From Chloroflexota bacterium (GTDB lineage Bacteria; Chloroflexota; Anaerolineae; Aggregatilineales; Phototrophicaceae), in NCBI GenBank assembly GCA_026706445.1, contig JAPOYT010000206.1, positions 1 to 56,986 of the forward strand: DNA of 56,986 nt, read 5' to 3'. A model generated the notes under the pieces. The model saw nothing but the letters and a program-made list of their open reading frames with translations, was not told the DNA's origin and searched no databases. The position numbers and the translations under genes were made by a program. This document shows, one piece after another, positions 29,318 through 42,219 of the stretch (its first letter is position 1; the number at the start of each line of letters is the position of its first letter).

Positions 29318-30553
29318 TCAATCATCTTGCGGCAAAAAGCGACGAATAATCTCGTTCATCCGCCGGCCCCACTGGTTCACCGGCAAGCCCATGGTGTCAA
29401 CGACTTCCGGCTCGACCATGGCGTCCATCTCCAGCCCCAGCCTCAGCAATCCCACGCTTGTGCTATAGGACGGATTCTTGAGCGTATCGGCAATGCCGGT
29501 GATCTTCTCCGGGTGCGCCAAACGCACCGGCACATTCAGGATTCGCGACGCCAGGTCGCGATAGCCGGGCAGCTGAGAACTGCCGCCGGTAATCACCGCG
29601 CCCGCCCGCAGCAAGCCAGCATAACCCGAGCGCTTGATTTCTTTTTCGACCAGTTCGAAAATCTCCTCAAAACGCGCTTCAATCACCATCGCCAAATCAC
29701 GCCGCGACACTGGCAGAATCTCGCCGCCGAATGGCTCAACCGGGAACACTTCCGATTCGCTCACCGCATTCATATCGGCGTGACCGCGCTGAATCTTGAC
29801 TTGCTCCGCCAAGCCGAAGGGAACGCGCATCCAGTAGGTGATATCCTGGGTGACGTGATTGCCGCCGACCGGGATGATCGCCGTATGCCATACGGTGCCG
29901 TCGATGAATATCGCGAGGTCGGTCGTGCCTCCGCCGATATCGATGACCACCGCGCCCATTTCGCGCTCATGCTCAGTCAAGATTGCATCGCCAGCCGCCA
30001 AGGGGTTGAGGATGAAGCGATCGACTAGCACGCCCGCCGATTCCACCGCGTCTTCCAGATTTGCCAGGCTGGTCGTCGAGGCAGTGATGATATGAGCGTC
30101 CACCTCAAGCCGGAAACAGTGCATGCCGAGTGGACTGCGGATGCCTTCCTGCCCATCCAGCGTGTAGCTGCGCGGCACAACATGCAGGATCTCGCGATTA
30201 TGGGGGATCGCGATATTGCGGGCGACGCTCATTGCCTTTTCCAGATCGTCCGCGCCCACACTTCGCGAGCCGACAATCGTCGCCAAACCGCGGCTGGTTA
30301 AGGAGGAAATATGGCTGCCCGCTACACTTACGAAGGCGCGATTGATGTCATATCCGCTTGACTTTTCCGCCGTGCGAACCGATTTGGCGATAGCGGAAGA
30401 AAGCGCGCCAACATCGTTGACAACGCCCTTCTTCATCCCGTCGCTGGGCTCAATCCCCAAGCCGACGACATAGACATCTTCGGGACGCACTTCGCCAACA
30501 ATAGTGCAAATCTTGTGAGTGCCAACATCTAAACCTACTACTAAGTCACCCAT
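29318..30553 (-). CDS. ftsA: Cell division protein FtsA
   Basis: The actin-like ATPase has 411 residues and tethers FtsZ to the membrane. Phosphate 1 VVGLDVGTHKI, the 1C domain with VAGSHISS, phosphate 2 VVIDIGGGTTDLAIF, and adenosine motif AVITGGSSQLPG are present. The C-terminus ends RRMNEIIRRFLPQDD, an amphipathic membrane-targeting helix. It starts 6 bases after the ftsQ stop. Confidence 0.97.
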   Translation of the reverse strand: MGDLVVGLDVGTHKICTIVGEVRPEDVYVVGLGIEPSDGMKKGVVNDVGALSSAIAKSVRTAEKSSGYDINRAFVSVAGSHISSLTSRGLATIVGSRSVGADDLEKAMSVARNIAIPHNREILHVVPRSYTLDGQEGIRSPLGMHCFRLEVDAHIITASTTSLANLEDAVESAGVLVDRFILNPLAAGDAILTEHEREMGAVVIDIGGGTTDLAIFIDGTVWHTAIIPVGGNHVTQDITYWMRVPFGLAEQVKIQRGHADMNAVSESEVFPVEPFGGEILPVSRRDLAMVIEARFEEIFELVEKEIKRSGYAGLLRAGAVITGGSSQLPGYRDLASRILNVPVRLAHPEKITGIADTLKNPSYSTSVGLLRLGLEMDAMVEPEVVDTMGLPVNQWGRRMNEIIRRFLPQDD

Positions 30554-30559
30554 GTCGAT

Positions 30560-31393
30560 TTATCGCTCCCCTAATACCCGGTAGAATGGCGCGTCCGGAT
30601 TCGCGATATTCAACTCCGCTATTGGAATCGCGCGACTGATAATGTTTTCTACCAACACGGCGTACAAATTCACTTTCTCTCCCATGACCGAGGCCGAGTC
30701 GCTGCCCATCCACACTTGCCAACCCAGTTCATTGGTCCAACCCAGACCGTGCGCCGGATGGAAACTCAGGTGTTCGCCTTCAGGCAGAATCTCCCGCAAC
30801 CGCAGGGCGCCCAGCACCATGTCTCCGCTAAAGTCCTCCGCGCTTGGCTTTGGACCGTCGTAGCGATCCGAAATGAGATTTACATGCAGCAAATTCGGCA
30901 TCTCGGCTCGGGCGCGCATCACACGGCCTTGTAAATCGATCCAGGTCTCATCGCCGCCGTCTGACCAAACGATTGCGGGCTGCCGTTCTTGTACGATAAT
31001 CGTTACCAGATTTGGCGGCCAGCCAAGTTCAATCGCAATATCGGCAATCGACGACGAACGCAAAACACGCTGACGAATCTGCTCCGGATCCAGCCAAAAC
31101 ATGTGATAATCCGCGATATCGGAAAAAGCGAAAATCTCCTCGCGCGAAATATGGATGTTGTCCCGCACTTGAATCGACCGCACATAAAAGACATCACTGG
31201 TGAAGCAAAACAGCAAGATGACGCTGAACAGGATGAACATGATGGCGCTTGACACGCGCCAGCGCGTGAAAACGCGGCGGCGCTCGCGGCGGGCTGGCGC
31301 CGATCGCTTGGGCGTCGTGCCGGGCGCTGACCGATGCAAGACACCGGGGGCGCGTTCCGGTTGCCGTCTAGGAGCCTGGACATGACTAGCCAC
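30560..31393 (-). CDS. ftsQ: Cell division protein FtsQ/DivIB
   Basis: The protein has 277 residues and begins at GTG. A basic cytoplasmic tail of about 48 residues rich in Arg and Pro is followed by one membrane helix (about 49-68, AIMFILFSVILLFCF), a POTRA domain (VRSIQVRDNIHISREEIFA, ending near QERQPAIVW) and the FtsQ beta domain. The sequence is divergent, but its place before ftsA and the layout make the call firm. It would join FtsL and FtsI in the divisome. Confidence 0.9.
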   Translation of the reverse strand: MASHVQAPRRQPERAPGVLHRSAPGTTPKRSAPARRERRRVFTRWRVSSAIMFILFSVILLFCFTSDVFYVRSIQVRDNIHISREEIFAFSDIADYHMFWLDPEQIRQRVLRSSSIADIAIELGWPPNLVTIIVQERQPAIVWSDGGDETWIDLQGRVMRARAEMPNLLHVNLISDRYDGPKPSAEDFSGDMVLGALRLREILPEGEHLSFHPAHGLGWTNELGWQVWMGSDSASVMGEKVNLYAVLVENIISRAIPIAELNIANPDAPFYRVLGER

Positions 31394-33929: not shown

Positions 33930-35039
33930 TCAAGCGCCACCCGTTTCGGTCAGCAGACGAGCCAGCCTATCCGCGCCATCGGGATTCGCCAGCGCGCCTG
34001 ACCGGCGGCTCATCTCTTTCATACGCTCGCCGTCATTGATAAGCGAGGAGACCACATCATATAGATTCGCGGGCATGTCCTCGTCATTCATTCTGATGGC
34101 CGCGCCGCGCTCGCTGAGGAATTCGGCATTCACTTTCTGATAGCGCCAGGCGTAAGGATAGGGCACGAGAATCGCTGGCAGCGCGAACAAGGGCAGCTCA
34201 GCCAGCGCGCTGGCGCCGGCGCGGCAGAGGGCGAGGTCGGCCGCGGCGAAAGCCAAACCCATGTCATCATGCAAATAGGGGAAAGCGTGGTAATCGGGGT
34301 GATCTTTCAATTCACCCGCCTCCCGCAGCGCGCGCTCCCAATCAAACTCGCCCGTGATGTGCAATACCTGCACGCCATCGTCGAGCAGCTGCCGGAGATG
34401 CGCGCCAAGAGCGACGTTGATGTTTCGCGCTCCGCGGCTGCCGCCAAAGACCAGCAGCGTCGTCCGGGCCTCATCCAAGTTGAAGTGTTCGCGCGCCTTC
34501 TCCCGCGTGGCATTTAGTCGGTTCGCTTGCAAAGGATAACCGGTGACGACCGTTTTCCCCGGTGGAAAATACTCCGCCGACGCCTCTACGCTGACGGCGA
34601 CTCTAGCTGCGAATCGCTGCAGCGCTTTGATCGCCAAGCCCGGTTCGATATCGGGTAAAAATATCGCAATGGGAAGGCCAAGCAAATGACCGCTTATTGC
34701 AACTGGCAGGTTCAACCAGCCACCGGTCAGCAGGATCACCTGCGGACGGATTCGCAATAGCTTGATCAAGGACTGGATCGTGCCTACGCTCAACTTGGCA
34801 AGGCTGGCAAGCGCTCGCAGGGGATTCACCCCATGCAGCGGTCCGGCGAGTATCTCGTGATAGCCGGCAAATTCGAGCCCCGATTCCAGCACCAGCTTGC
34901 GTTCCATGCCGCCTGTCGCGCCAAAAAAGAAGAGTTCGTGCGTCTCACTGCTGTCCCGCAGCAGCGCTTGGGCGACCGCCAGCGCGGGATAGACGTGTCC
35001 GCCGGTTCCGCCAGCTCCGATCAAAACTCGCAATTTCAC
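33930..35039 (-). CDS. murG: UDP-GlcNAc:lipid I N-acetylglucosaminyltransferase
   Basis: The GT28 enzyme has 369 residues and converts lipid I to lipid II on the inner membrane face. It opens VLIGAGGTGGHVYPALA and contains VILLTGGW, VFGGSRGARNINVAL and CRAGASALAELPLFALPAILVPYPYA. I chose the GTG at 35039, preceded by CGGAGAA, which gives the usual short N-terminus. The frame stays open to 35087. This start lies inside ftsW, whose 3' end overlaps murG by 95 bases. Confidence 0.95.
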   Translation of the reverse strand: MKLRVLIGAGGTGGHVYPALAVAQALLRDSSETHELFFFGATGGMERKLVLESGLEFAGYHEILAGPLHGVNPLRALASLAKLSVGTIQSLIKLLRIRPQVILLTGGWLNLPVAISGHLLGLPIAIFLPDIEPGLAIKALQRFAARVAVSVEASAEYFPPGKTVVTGYPLQANRLNATREKAREHFNLDEARTTLLVFGGSRGARNINVALGAHLRQLLDDGVQVLHITGEFDWERALREAGELKDHPDYHAFPYLHDDMGLAFAAADLALCRAGASALAELPLFALPAILVPYPYAWRYQKVNAEFLSERGAAIRMNDEDMPANLYDVVSSLINDGERMKEMSRRSGALANPDGADRLARLLTETGGA

Positions 35040-36267
35040 TTCTCCGTTCCGCTGTCGATTTTCGCCGGGTGGCCACGCGGCGCACACTCAGCATCAGCCC
35101 CACGCCGATCATCACTACCATTAGCGAGGACCCGCCGAAGCTGATGAAGGGCAGGGGCACGCCAGTTGAAGGCACAGCGCCCGTCATCACGGCGATGTTC
35201 AACAGCGCTTGAATGATCACCCAAGAGGTGAAACCAACGCAAAGCAGCGAACCAAAACTGTCTTTCGCCCGACGCGCAATCTGGAAGCCGCGGATGGCGA
35301 AGGCGACATACAAAGCGACAACCAGGGCCGCGCCAAATACGCCAAGCTCTTCGCCGATGATGGCGAAAATACTATCGGTGTGCGGCGCCGGCAGCGCGCC
35401 GAATTTCTGCTCTGAATGGCCGATGCCGACGCCAATCCAGCCGCCGCGCAGAAAAGCCGTTATCGCCTGCAGCGTGTGGTAATCCGACGAGGTGACATCG
35501 CTGAAACCGGCCACAAAGTCGGCAATACGTTGCTGCGCGTAAGGCCGGCTTTCCACAACGACTGCCATGACCGCGCTCGCCAATCCGCCTACCGCTCCCA
35601 TCTGCAATAAATTGGCGCCCGCTACGAAATACATGACCCCAGCCGTAAGCGCAACGATGGCGGCCGAACTCAGGTCCGGCTGCGACACAATCAGGCCGCT
35701 CAATGTGCCGACGACCAATAGAAACGGAATCAAGCCAAAAAAGAAGCTGTCGACCCTTGTGTTTTTTGAGCCCAGCCAAGCCGCCATGTAAAGCACGGTG
35801 GCGAACTCCGCCAACTCGCCAGGCTGAAAGCGCCCCCCGGTGAATGAACGCTGCGCGCCGAATCTCACCTCGCCGAATAGCCGCACGGCAACCAGCAAAA
35901 CGATCGTCACTACCAACAGCCAGAGTGCAAATCGCTTCCAAAAGCGATAATCAATTGTGGCAAAAAATATCAAAGCCAGCGCCGCCAGCATGACATTGCG
36001 CAGATGCTCCTCAACAAAGAAACCGGTTGCGCTGCCGTAGGTGTTGTTGCTCCAGTCCCAAGTCGAACTGAAGACCATCAGCGAGCCGATGGCAAGCAGC
36101 AGCACAACGACCGCCACCAGCGGCTTATCCAGCGACGCCAGCAGATGCCGCCGCTGATTGATCACCGGGCGGGGTCCTTCGTCATTGCTGGCGTTGGCGC
36201 CAAAGCCACCGCGAATTCTGCGGCGAATTCGGCGTTGCCTAGCGTCATAATTGGCTATGTCCGTCAT
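34945..36267 (-). CDS. ftsW: Lipid II polymerase FtsW (SEDS family)
   Basis: The SEDS protein has 440 residues and about ten membrane helices. Signature blocks are GEVRFGAQRSF, RFQPGELAEFATVLYMA, LIVSQPDLSSAAIV, GFSDVTSSDYHTLQAITAFLRGGWIGVGIG and VPSTGVPLPFISFGGSSLM. An Arg-rich cytoplasmic extension of about 45 residues precedes the first helix. The last 32 residues (from about RSEIASF) are encoded within murG in another frame and form a basic tail unlike most homologues. ATG 36267, with a TATAAT box 40 bases upstream. Confidence 0.95.
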   Translation of the reverse strand: MTDIANYDARQRRIRRRIRGGFGANASNDEGPRPVINQRRHLLASLDKPLVAVVVLLLAIGSLMVFSSTWDWSNNTYGSATGFFVEEHLRNVMLAALALIFFATIDYRFWKRFALWLLVVTIVLLVAVRLFGEVRFGAQRSFTGGRFQPGELAEFATVLYMAAWLGSKNTRVDSFFFGLIPFLLVVGTLSGLIVSQPDLSSAAIVALTAGVMYFVAGANLLQMGAVGGLASAVMAVVVESRPYAQQRIADFVAGFSDVTSSDYHTLQAITAFLRGGWIGVGIGHSEQKFGALPAPHTDSIFAIIGEELGVFGAALVVALYVAFAIRGFQIARRAKDSFGSLLCVGFTSWVIIQALLNIAVMTGAVPSTGVPLPFISFGGSSLMVVMIGVGLMLSVRRVATRRKSTAERRSEIASFDRSWRNRRTRLSRAGGRPSAAAGQQ

Positions 36268-37904: not shown

Positions 37905-38930
37905 TCACAGCAAGGCCAGCGCGACGCCCACGAAGGCGCTGAGTATGCCAATCAGCCAGAAGCGCTGCACGATCTGCGTCTCGCTCCAGCCACCCAATTC
38001 GAAGTGATGATGAATAGGCGTACGGCGGAAGGGACGAATATCGACGCCATAGAAGCGCCGGCTCAGCTTGGCGGAGGCGACCTGCAGGATTACGCTCAGT
38101 ATCTCCATCACCGGCACAATGGCGATGATCGGCAGCAATAGCCACTCGCCCGTCATCACCGCGACCGTGCCGAGAGTCGCGCCCAGCGCCAGCGAACCCG
38201 TATCGCCCATGAACAACTGCGCCGGATAAGCGTTGTACCAAAGAAACGCGAAGCAGGCGCCAACGATCACAAAGCAGAGTTCCACCATGTAGATCTGCTC
38301 TTGCAAAAACGCGATTACGCCATAAGCGCCAAATGCGCTCGCGCTGATGATGCCTGCCAAACCATCGAGCCCATCGGTGAAGTTGGTCGCGTTTGAAGTC
38401 GCGACAATGATGAACGTGCTTATCGCTATGAAGAGCAGCGGGGGCAGCGGGATCTCGGCGCCGATAAATGGCAGGTGCACACTGTTGGCATAAGAAAACT
38501 CGAAATAGGAGATGGCGGATGACGCGCTCAAAGCAAGGAGAATCTGAAGCGCGAACTTCAACTTGCCAGATAAACCTTCGCCGACCTCGCCGCGCGAAGT
38601 TTGGATGCCTTCCCAGTCGTCTATCACGCCGAGCAAGGCGAAGCCAATCAGCACGATAATTGGCAAAAGTATGCTGCGGCCCTCGCCTGCCTCCACTATG
38701 CGCGAAATGTTGAGCGCAAGCGTGACGGCGATGGCCGGCAAGATGATCATGATCCCGCCCATGGTCGGCGTGCCAATCTTTTGCACATGGCGGCTGTCCA
38801 TGAGTTCGGCGCGGATCTGCTTGCCCAAATTGAAGCGATGCAAGATCGCCACAAAAGGTCCGCCCCAGATGACGCCCAGCAAGAAGGTTGCGCCTCCTAC
38901 GCTGAGCGCAAGCGGTAATTGCCCATCCAT
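37905..38930 (-). CDS. mraY: Phospho-N-acetylmuramoyl-pentapeptide transferase
   Basis: The membrane enzyme has 341 residues and about ten helices, and makes lipid I from UDP-MurNAc-pentapeptide and undecaprenyl phosphate. GTPTMGGIMI, the Asp pair in GVIDDWEG, NATNFTDGLDGLA, FMGDTGSLALGA and RRTPIHHHFEL are canonical. It starts 12 bases after the ftsI stop. Confidence 0.97.
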   Translation of the reverse strand: MDGQLPLALSVGGATFLLGVIWGGPFVAILHRFNLGKQIRAELMDSRHVQKIGTPTMGGIMIILPAIAVTLALNISRIVEAGEGRSILLPIIVLIGFALLGVIDDWEGIQTSRGEVGEGLSGKLKFALQILLALSASSAISYFEFSYANSVHLPFIGAEIPLPPLLFIAISTFIIVATSNATNFTDGLDGLAGIISASAFGAYGVIAFLQEQIYMVELCFVIVGACFAFLWYNAYPAQLFMGDTGSLALGATLGTVAVMTGEWLLLPIIAIVPVMEILSVILQVASAKLSRRFYGVDIRPFRRTPIHHHFELGGWSETQIVQRFWLIGILSAFVGVALALL

Positions 38931-38942
38931 GATTCGGCTTGT

Positions 38943-40691
38943 CTAGCTTCCGTCTGCGCTGGCATTCGTCTTCGCCGCGTTTAGGCGGCTGCGGACTTCA
39001 TCATCCGGTATTTCGAGCAGAATCACAAGACGTTCTGCGATTTTCTTGAAAATATTAGGTGTCACCCTGTAGCCGTAATACTCCTTCGGCCGATCAAGCT
39101 TGACCAGAATAACCGCTTGCGGATCGTGAGCGGGCAAGAAGCCAACAAAGGACACGATTGACGAATGAGTTCCTACCTCCTCGCCAACGGCGGTTGAGAT
39201 CCAGGCGGTGCCGGGCTTGCCCGCAATGGTGTAACCGCGCATGAAGGCGTCGAGCGCTCCTTCGCGAATCACTCGAATCATCAAATCTCTAACGATGGCG
39301 GCCGTCTCGGCGGAAACGACGCGCCGCACCGTCGTCGGGCGCGCCTCCTCTATGCCCTCTTCCCCGATCACCTGCCGCACGATTCGCGGCTGCCGCATGA
39401 CGCCATCATTTGCAATTGCGCTGAACGCGGTGATCAGCTGCATCGGTGTGACTTTGACGTCTTGGCCGAAGCTGTTATAGCCGAGATAACTCTCGTTCCA
39501 ATTGGTGTCGCCCGGTATCTTCAAGTCGCCCCGTTCTTCGGCGAACAACCCAACACCGGTGGCTTGCCCGAAGCCAAAGGCGCGCATCATGCTATAAAAC
39601 TTCTCGGTGCCCATTTCCAGCCCGACGGTCGCCGCGCCCGCATTCAGCGAACGGATCAATATTGTGGCGGCGTCCGCCGTGCCATGAGCTTGGAAAAAAC
39701 GATTCCAAATGTCTTTCCCGCCGATTTCTAGGTGACCGTCGTCATTATACGTCCAGTAAGGTGTGATCGTTCCAGTTTCCAGCGCGCTGGCCACCGTAAG
39801 CGCCTGCATAATCGATCCCGGTTCATAAACGCCCTGCACCGCCGGATTCTCCAGCAGGGCGGGGTCCTCGATCTCCAGAAATCGGTTAGGGTCCATCGTC
39901 GGGTAATTGGCCAGCGCCAAGACATCGCCCGTGCCCGGATCCATCACGATGACGGTGCCGCGGTAGGCTTGATACTCCTCAACCGCCGCTTTCAGTTCGC
40001 TCTCAACCCAGAACTGCACATCACGGTCAAGCGTCAGCACGATATCCTTGCCGCGCTGTTCGGCCGGTCTGTCTTGCGGCAGACCGAATGGAACATTGCT
40101 GATCGAGAGGTCCAGCACGCGTCCCGACAGCGTGTCGTTATAGGCGCCTTCCACGCCCAGCGAGCCCACCAACCCCTCGTCGAGCACGATGCCGATTACG
40201 TGCGCGGCGAGCGTTTCCTGCGGATAAAACCGTTTGGGGATTTCCTCCAGACCGAGAGAGATTTCGTCAAGCGCGGCGATAGCCTGGCCTTGCTCAGATG
40301 AAATGGGACCAGCGACGAATTCCCAGACATTGTCACTGATCGTTTTTCGGTAGACTTCAAACTCGTCGATGCCCAAGATATTCGCCACGTTATCGCTCAG
40401 CGTTTCCGGATCGGCTACCAGATCTGGGCTGACCCCGAGGCGATATTGCACGATATTGAAGGCTAGCGGCTCTCCATCGCGATCGAATATCAAGCCGCGC
40501 TCGGCCGGAACTCGAAGCGTCGTGTTGGTAACCGAGCTTCCGATCTTCTCCAATTCTTGCCGCACCGACCGCGGGAAAAACTGGAAATTCGCCAGATTGA
40601 TGACGAGATAAGCAGCCAGCAATATAAGGAAGATGGCCACAAAAGGCAGCCGGGCTTGAATCGTGGATTGCTGTGACGAAAGTCCTTGCAT
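38943..40691 (-). CDS. ftsI: FtsI-like class B penicillin-binding protein with altered catalytic motifs
   Basis: The protein has 582 residues, with one N-terminal membrane helix (about 15-36), a PBP dimer domain (RGLIFDRDGEPLAFN) and a transpeptidase domain. In that domain EPGS is followed by I-M-Q (S293-x-x-Q296) where family members have S-x-x-K, so the general-base Lys is missing. The third motif reads K492-P-G instead of K-T-G. The second motif S348-L-N350 is normal. Two of three motifs are therefore off consensus, which suggests an inactive or altered transpeptidase that could keep a scaffold role with FtsW. I re-read both codons in the DNA. There are no PASTA domains. It lies between ftsL and mraY as usual. 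Confidence 0.92.
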   Translation of the reverse strand: MQGLSSQQSTIQARLPFVAIFLILLAAYLVINLANFQFFPRSVRQELEKIGSSVTNTTLRVPAERGLIFDRDGEPLAFNIVQYRLGVSPDLVADPETLSDNVANILGIDEFEVYRKTISDNVWEFVAGPISSEQGQAIAALDEISLGLEEIPKRFYPQETLAAHVIGIVLDEGLVGSLGVEGAYNDTLSGRVLDLSISNVPFGLPQDRPAEQRGKDIVLTLDRDVQFWVESELKAAVEEYQAYRGTVIVMDPGTGDVLALANYPTMDPNRFLEIEDPALLENPAVQGVYEPGSIMQALTVASALETGTITPYWTYNDDGHLEIGGKDIWNRFFQAHGTADAATILIRSLNAGAATVGLEMGTEKFYSMMRAFGFGQATGVGLFAEERGDLKIPGDTNWNESYLGYNSFGQDVKVTPMQLITAFSAIANDGVMRQPRIVRQVIGEEGIEEARPTTVRRVVSAETAAIVRDLMIRVIREGALDAFMRGYTIAGKPGTAWISTAVGEEVGTHSSIVSFVGFLPAHDPQAVILVKLDRPKEYYGYRVTPNIFKKIAERLVILLEIPDDEVRSRLNAAKTNASADGS

Positions 40692-40708: not shown

Positions 40709-41176
40709 TCAATTGCCGAAAGATTCGAGCTGCTGTCTCAGGAGCGTAAATTGCTGCTCCAGCCAGCTGCTAAAGGTCTCCTCATAAGTTTGCGCCGCGT
40801 CCAGTGGCTTTGATGATGCGGCTTCCACCGGCGCCTCGCTTCGGAGCGGGCTATAGCCCTCTATCAAAAGGTAATCGATGTCGCTGTTGGCAGCGGGCCG
40901 AAAGCCAATCTCGGCCGCGCGCGCGAACAAGCGAGGCACGGTCCGGAAGCTGGCGATTTCTCCGATCAACTGCTCGTTTTGGCGTTTCAATTGATCGCGT
41001 CGGCTGATTAAATCTTCAATCTCGCGATTGGTGATGGCGAAAGAGGCCACCTGCGTCAAGTACAGGCTTCCCAGAATCAAGAGAACTGCGATGCCCAGAA
41101 CCGCCATCGCCGTCGCCTGATTGCGCGTCTGAAAGCGTTTGCGGCTGAAGGTATGCTGGAACCAGGTTTGCGACAT
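40709..41176 (-). CDS. ftsL: FtsL/DivIC-like division protein
   Basis: The protein has 155 residues, with a short basic cytoplasmic part, one membrane helix (about 24-43, AVLGIAVLLILGSLYL) and a coiled coil (EIEDLISRRDQLKRQNEQLIGEIA), then a C-terminal tail ending in a helix with SSWLEQQFTLLRQQ. The sequence is poorly conserved, as in all FtsL, so the call relies on topology and on its position between rsmH and ftsI. I chose ATG 41176; the open frame continues 39 codons upstream through a hairpin-rich gap. Confidence 0.82.
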   Translation of the reverse strand: MSQTWFQHTFSRKRFQTRNQATAMAVLGIAVLLILGSLYLTQVASFAITNREIEDLISRRDQLKRQNEQLIGEIASFRTVPRLFARAAEIGFRPAANSDIDYLLIEGYSPLRSEAPVEAASSKPLDAAQTYEETFSSWLEQQFTLLRQQLESFGN

Positions 41177-41230
41177 GGTCGTATACAATCCGTCATTGGG
41201 GACAACAAAATTGGCGATACCAATCTGGCA

Positions 41231-41272
41231 GTGAACTGTATTTCTACCAATGTATTCAATTTGCCAGTTCAC
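41231..41272. repeat. Inverted repeat in the rsmH-ftsL gap
   Basis: GTGAACTG (41231-41238) and CAGTTCAC (41265-41272) form an 8-bp inverted repeat with a 26-base spacer in the 107-base gap between rsmH and ftsL. TACCAAT is also repeated nearby. It may be an mRNA hairpin or a relic; there is no T-run. Confidence 0.4.
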
Positions 41273-41283
41273 GCAACTTGGCT

Positions 41284-42219
41284 TCAAGCCCATTCCAGCT
41301 TTTCAACCACACGGAGCTTGGCGCTGCGGCTGCGCGGATTCGCTTCAATTTCTTCGCGCGACGGAGCGATCGGCTTGCGATTGACCAGTCGGATCTGCGC
41401 CTTTGCTTCTCCTATGGATGCCATCCCGGGCGGCGCGCTTACCGTTGTCGCCAGCTTTTTGAAGGTCTGCTTTACGATTCGATCTTCCAGGCTGTGAAAG
41501 CTGATGACAGCCAAACGGCCGCCCGGTCTCAGCAGATCCACAGCGACGGGCAAGGCGCGCTCTAGCGCTTCGAGTTCGCCATTCACCGCGATGCGCAGCG
41601 CTTGAAACACCTTCGTCGCCGGGTGGGTCGCCGTTAAGCGGCGGGCGCGTCCGCTTTTGGCGCGCGCCACCAGCTCGGCCAGTTGACGGGTCGTCTGAAG
41701 CGGTCGCTGCGCCACGATAGCGTCTGCGATTCGCCGTGACTGCCGCTCTTCGCCGTAGCGATAGAGAAGGTTGGCAAGCTCCGTCGCCGGCAATCCGTTG
41801 ACAAGATCCTGAGCCGTCAACCCGCTACCGCCACGGTCAAATCGCATATCCAGCAGCGCGTCAAAGCGAAAGGAAAAGCCTCGCGCCGGGTCGTCCAATT
41901 GCAGCGAGGATAAGCCCAGGTCCAGCAAGATGGCGTCAACCCTGTCCCAGCCAGCGAGCCGCGCCTCAGCCGCCATGGCAAGGTAACTGCCGTGAACCAG
42001 ACGAGCGCGGTCAGCGAATTCGCTCAACCTGCCACGGGCGTGATCAATCGCGCTTCGGTCCCGGTCAAAACAGAGCGCTTCATCAATGCCCGCTCGCAGC
42101 AGCGCCAGGGTATGCCCGCCACCGCCGACTGTGCCATCAACCAGTCGCTTGACGGCGGGCTCGTGGGCGCGCAAAGTCTCGGCAACCTCGCGATCCAGAA
42201 TCGGAACATGCTCGTTCAT
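41284..42219 (-). CDS. rsmH: 16S rRNA (cytosine-1402-N4)-methyltransferase
   Basis: The protein has 311 residues. It opens NEHVPILDREVAETL, then the SAM-binding DGTVGGGGHTLALL, DAILLDLGLSSLQLDDPARGFSF, ATHPATKVFQALRIAVNGEL and VISFHSLEDRIVKQ. The ATG at 42219 fits the family; the frame is open to 42264. It is the first gene of the dcw cluster. There is no mraZ between it and the divergent uvrC. Confidence 0.96.
   Translation of the reverse strand: MNEHVPILDREVAETLRAHEPAVKRLVDGTVGGGGHTLALLRAGIDEALCFDRDRSAIDHARGRLSEFADRARLVHGSYLAMAAEARLAGWDRVDAILLDLGLSSLQLDDPARGFSFRFDALLDMRFDRGGSGLTAQDLVNGLPATELANLLYRYGEERQSRRIADAIVAQRPLQTTRQLAELVARAKSGRARRLTATHPATKVFQALRIAVNGELEALERALPVAVDLLRPGGRLAVISFHSLEDRIVKQTFKKLATTVSAPPGMASIGEAKAQIRLVNRKPIAPSREEIEANPRSRSAKLRVVEKLEWA

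Follow-up and report, generated by a model that had tools for sequence, protein, structure and literature searches.

Does a divisome FtsI whose catalytic motifs are degenerate still cross-link peptidoglycan? FtsI is regarded as an essential, universal transpeptidase and a principal β-lactam target, and the question is raised by the only FtsI of a dcw cluster in the window analyzed here (the whole stretch of DNA, 56,986 nucleotides of a Chloroflexota genome). The gene and its three motif positions are as follows.

38943..40691, minus strand: ftsI, an ORF of 582 residues with membrane anchor, pedestal (PF03717) and transpeptidase domain (PF00905), catalytic motifs degenerate
39804..39815, minus strand: SxxK position of FtsI, S293-I-M-Q296, codons TCG ATT ATG CAG, Gln in place of the catalytic Lys
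39642..39650, minus strand: SxN position of FtsI, S348-L-N350, codons TCG CTG AAT, intact in this genome
39210..39218, minus strand: KTG position of FtsI, K492-P-G494, codons AAG CCC GGC

A domain search matched the protein to PF00905 with an E value of 2e-63 and to PF03717 with an E value of 2e-13, and a helix spanning residues 6-38 provides the N-terminal membrane anchor that, together with the dimerisation and transpeptidase domains, completes the FtsI architecture. The AF2 model is confident (mean pLDDT of 86.6), with the predicted fold intact, and its matches among PDB structures were SpoVD, PBP3 and FtsI of the P. aeruginosa FtsWIQBL complex. At the SxxK position, S293 is encoded by TCG (39813-39815), I294 by ATT, M295 by ATG and Q296 by CAG (39804-39806); at the KTG position, K492 is encoded by AAG (39216-39218), P493 by CCC (39213-39215) and G494 by GGC (39210-39212). 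These codons bear out the first-pass annotation, which had read the two motifs as S293-I-M-Q296 and K492-P-G494 and whose coordinates, 39806 and 39213, proved exact. Of the motifs expected in a functional DD-transpeptidase, SxxK and K[TS]G are not met and SxN is met.

The cluster runs in the order rsmH/mraW, ftsL-position gene, ftsI, mraY, murD, ftsW, murG, murC, murB, ftsQ, ftsA, with ftsI between the ftsL-position gene and mraY, as its place in a dcw cluster requires.

40709..41293, minus strand: ftsL-position gene, a small bitopic protein named by position; homologues precede ftsI in relatives
37905..38930, minus strand: mraY, directly after ftsI with no murE or murF between
34945..36267, minus strand: ftsW, the SEDS polymerase and FtsI partner, catalytic Asp retained in PHTDSIF
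30560..31393, minus strand: ftsQ, in the same order as in relatives
29318..30553, minus strand: ftsA, in the same order as in relatives

FtsW keeps PHTDSIF with the catalytic Asp across the genus, the equivalent residues in E. coli FtsW being H295-T296-D297 (PMC8765783). Every genome of the genus has a single dcw-type FtsI, with one match at an E value of ≤1e-60; the same holds for this genome. The protein at 38943-40691 is FtsI by descent, architecture and position and, judged by its motifs alone, is not a functional SxxK transpeptidase. As a separate observation on the window (38930-38943) and on relatives L069-L078, murE and murF are missing at this point in this family and family f4, while families f5 and f6, and a large part of the class, carry a MurF-like Mur ligase there.

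Among the 34 genomes examined for this genus of uncultured bacteria, the SxxK lysine is absent in 33, which together make up an inner clade, with Gln in 31 and Leu in 2; the codons at residue 296 are CAG, CAA or CTT in this clade and AAG in the remaining genome (G033). The third motif reads KPG, KAG or MPG in all 33 inner-genus proteins, none of which has Thr493, while Lys492 is retained in 30. Ser293 is kept in 29 and replaced by Thr in 4. The SxN motif, described earlier as normal, is indeed so here, but some relatives have lost it: its Asn has become Asp, His or Arg in 13/33, one of which also carries Glu in place of Ser. The same motif pattern was found separately in 29 named Anaerolineae/Chloroflexota MAG records. 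Within the genus, G033 alone has a canonical FtsI (SVMK/SLN/KTG), and it is sister to all other members in the FtsI tree; its genome is 8.5 Mb, in the same genus as genomes of 3-5 Mb, and gave a single MecA_N-type PBP match. The first-pass annotation would have been refuted by close relatives that all carried SxxK and KTG, and the alignment of FtsI from related genomes, which it had proposed as a check, gave the opposite result, with Lys296 and Thr493 missing in 33/33. A sequencing or assembly error, or a recent mutation, is ruled out by 33 inner-genus genomes with the same loss.

The loss is not confined to this genus. Outside it, 52 of the 58 family proteins that were read are canonical (49 with KTG and 3 with KSG), and the FtsI of the three genomes of genus g31 reads SLMQ, S- or T-LN and TAG, that of G119 reads GAIMI, GTQ and YFA, and that of G079 is truncated. 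In the class sample, G156 and its family member G213 have A..M, S.I and F/I-SS, and two other members of their family have a canonical FtsI. In every lineage with catalytic loss, ftsI lies in the dcw cluster. On trees built from alignments without the motif columns, the SxxK lysine requires 4 changes in 187 proteins and 3 in the family set, and 3 are forced by well-supported branches; the branch of G119 is long and its exact placement unsure, although it sits among canonical relatives. Besides the genus clade, three or more related lineages (g31, G119 and G156/G213) have thus lost the catalytic residues independently, and no frequency can be estimated, the class set having been picked partly for weak scores. 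An FtsI fragment of G092 at a contig end (L297:5996-7160) has SIFN, with AAT, at SxxK and intact SxN and KTG; this is unconfirmed, and the Asn at the Lys position is possibly a very recent loss or an error.

We then compared selection on FtsI in pairs of 80-98.5% identity and obtained a dN/dS of 0.078 for the clade lacking the SxxK lysine (67 pairs) vs 0.080 for canonical FtsI (25 pairs), with values in the clade of 0.064 for the pedestal and 0.074 for the transpeptidase domain. Pseudogene decay is ruled out by this dN/dS of ∼0.08. Change is concentrated on the catalytic motifs: among 43 columns conserved at ≥97% in 148 canonical FtsI, 6 belong to the motifs and 37 do not, and 5/6 motif columns vary in the clade vs 3/37 others (Fisher P of 3e-4). 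For G119, 6/6 motif columns are changed vs 3/37 others (P of 1.4e-5), and for G156 and G213 5/6 vs 8/37 (P of 0.007), all of these P values being descriptive only since the sequences are related. In the pedestal, 26 columns do not vary among 24 outgroup proteins, and none of these is changed in most clade members; in the transpeptidase domain the figure is 4 of 50 (K296, D332, G411 and Y504). FtsI therefore meets the definition of a pseudoenzyme under selection, with catalytic residues gone and the remaining protein conserved.

Mur ligases, a D-Ala-D-Ala ligase (Ddl), MraY, MurG, FtsW and RodA/PBP2 are all encoded in the genome. PBP2 (SVWK/SCD/KTG) shares its contig with MreB-like and RodA-like proteins. 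Both class A PBPs have intact motifs, and two class B PBPs (C164 and C214) combine MecA_N, dimerisation and transpeptidase domains with intact SxxK, SxN and KTG, so the search for another class B PBP, also proposed earlier, was positive. These two resemble B. subtilis PBP 3 and S. aureus PBP2a, and the gene content that a putative division of labor like that of PBP 2B and PBP 3 calls for is there, since this genome itself encodes class B PBPs of the MecA_N type whose motifs are intact. An orthologue of C164 (≥62%) is present in 33/33 genomes with the degenerate FtsI, with intact motifs in all 30 that were read. Canonical relatives carry the C164 type as well, and it therefore predates the FtsI loss; G033 had only the other type. 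A substitute PBP gained on the loss branch is ruled out by this ancestry. YkuD proteins number 3-4 per inner-genus genome, and no expansion was seen relative to relatives with canonical FtsI.

The substrate and several cross-linking enzymes thus exist, and the earlier appeal to a debated cell wall chemistry for this lineage is not needed. Loss of the D-Ala-D-Ala substrate, which the missing murE and murF of the dcw cluster might suggest, is ruled out by MurE, a MurF-like ligase and Ddl encoded away from the cluster and by the same gap in canonical relatives. The MurF-like ligase (558 residues, L116:1045-2718, on contig C32 of this genome) adjoins Ddl; where Mur ligases usually have their N domain, it has ∼190 hydrophobic residues that look like transmembrane segments, and no match above the MurF cutoff was found in the genus.

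Taken together, we consider it likely that FtsI is a pseudo-transpeptidase kept as partner and activator of FtsW, with cross-linking performed by other enzymes. The protein retains anchor, pedestal and whole transpeptidase fold and would still bind FtsL/FtsQ/FtsB and FtsW, switching on septal glycan polymerization by FtsW through pedestal and membrane contacts, as inferred from work on SEDS-bPBP pairs (PMC8078798, PMC8765783). Without the SxxK lysine, and with Pro or Ala for the Thr of KTG, no acyl-enzyme should form with D-Ala-D-Ala or penicillin and, since acylation is needed for both by established SxxK enzymology, neither transpeptidation nor penicillin binding is expected. Catalytic inactivity in this lineage is very probable, although inferred without biochemistry, and a scaffold that activates FtsW is a probable inference. 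Septal peptides would be cross-linked in trans. The two class B PBPs with a MecA_N domain are the most plausible enzymes for this, and class A PBPs and YkuD proteins may contribute; the assignment to the MecA_N-type PBPs is inferred from B. subtilis, in which PBP 3 accompanies an inactive PBP 2B, and we hold it no more firmly than its negation. A septal substitute of the MecA type is not guaranteed, because PBP2a of MRSA can replace PBP2 but not the transpeptidase activity of PBP1 (PMC7617827). Also against our reading as a whole, the C164-type PBP shows no link to the loss, and this genome's FtsI still has Ser293 and Lys492.

Those two residues, kept in 29/33 and 30/33 inner-genus proteins, are what an FtsI still active by altered chemistry, with the role of Lys taken by Gln or some other residue, would have in its favor. 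The first-pass annotation had left room for such chemistry, but no substitute catalytic set is conserved, since close relatives vary at every position concerned: 296 is Gln or Leu, 293 Ser or Thr, 350 Asn, Asp, His or Arg, 492 Lys or Met and 493 Pro or Ala. One inner-genus member even reads T..Q, E.R and KPG, and in G119 and G156/G213 nearly all motif residues are gone, making this explanation very unlikely. That ftsI is instead a recent pseudogene, or the product of sequencing or assembly error, can be virtually dismissed: 33 open reading frames without stops, the low dN/dS and three further loss lineages oppose it, only the substitutions themselves speak for it, and the G092 protein alone could be such a case.

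Two further explanations accept the inactive FtsI and differ in what surrounds it. L,D-transpeptidases and class A PBPs, and not the MecA_N-type PBPs, may make most of the septal cross-links; the YkuD proteins and the two intact class A PBPs make this a real, if minority, possibility, against which stands a YkuD count no higher than in relatives with canonical FtsI. The dead site could otherwise bind D-Ala-D-Ala stems or nascent glycan noncovalently and act as a sensor gating FtsW, an idea that can draw on selection about as strong on the transpeptidase domain as on the pedestal and on the many nonmotif columns kept there. The motif columns vary even between close relatives, however, and no conserved ligand pocket is apparent, so we regard a sensor as improbable. 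The account in which FtsI is a pseudo-transpeptidase with a structural role, proposed in outline by the first-pass annotation together with cross-linking elsewhere, remains the best supported, resting on recurrent and clade-wide loss, strong purifying selection and intact alternative transpeptidases.

Elsewhere in this genome, on contig C20 (L099:3645-6380), the gene of a second SEDS protein precedes that of a PbpA-like protein of 473 residues (PF21922, PF00905), and this PbpA-like protein lacks SxxK, SxN and KTG. A motif-less PbpA-like protein was found in the order-level relatives sampled (families of the order, L150-L169), in most of which the SEDS gene adjoins, and the HSD aspartate of that SEDS protein is retained wherever it was read; in G047 (L152:1053-3773) and G019 (L130) the two are fused in a single ORF. 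The pair is older than the FtsI loss and is a parallel case in the same order, and it supports the idea that a class B PBP without catalysis may be kept as a structural SEDS partner in this lineage. No match to the PbpA-like protein was found in several genus members, and it is therefore no substitute for FtsI. On balance, we lean toward a broader proposal in which, within Anaerolineae, SEDS polymerases and their own transpeptidases have parted ways more than once: FtsI turned into a pseudoenzyme at least 4 times, the second SEDS protein is paired, and twice fused, with a motif-less PBP across the order, and the class B PBP would serve only as allosteric activator, with cross-linking in trans.

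If this is true, the two roles of FtsI, FtsW activation and cross-linking, have been separated by evolution and not by mutagenesis, SEDS polymerization can proceed without a catalytically active partner of its own, and bacteria with a divisome FtsI that does not bind penicillin are to be expected. These FtsI proteins would be ready-made tools for testing SEDS activation without transpeptidation. Our literature search found engineered inactive FtsI only and no natural one, with incomplete coverage from which subscription papers were mostly missing; as far as searched, the situation was known only from engineered mutants, and the present case is a variant of it that arose in nature and did so repeatedly.

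In B. subtilis, catalytically inactive PBP 2B (S309A) supports division provided that the cell also has PBP 3 (PbpC), which is related to S. aureus PBP2a (PMC5656894). The likeness lies in a structural, catalysis-independent role of the division class B PBP with activity supplied by a MecA/PBP2a-like PBP; unlike the engineered mutant, the state described here is natural and fixed in the genus, whose proteins have since diverged to 67% identity, and other lineages show it too. C. difficile SpoVD/SpoVE and PBP3 (PMC12713402, PMC10693644) are similar in PBP redundancy and in a dcw-encoded bPBP whose catalysis is partly dispensable for the septum, but SpoVD retains intact catalysis and also functions in sporulation, whereas the motifs of FtsI are gone here. 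S. aureus likewise has a multifunctional division PBP and a MecA_N-type PBP in the same cell (PBP1 and PBP2a; PMC9426605, PMC7617827), its PBP1, unlike what is inferred for our FtsI, being an active transpeptidase. P. aeruginosa FtsI/PBP3 in FtsWIQBL (PDB 8bh1) shares fold and domain order (TMq of 0.79) as well as dcw context, and differs in its complete active site, which in the FtsI described here is degenerate.
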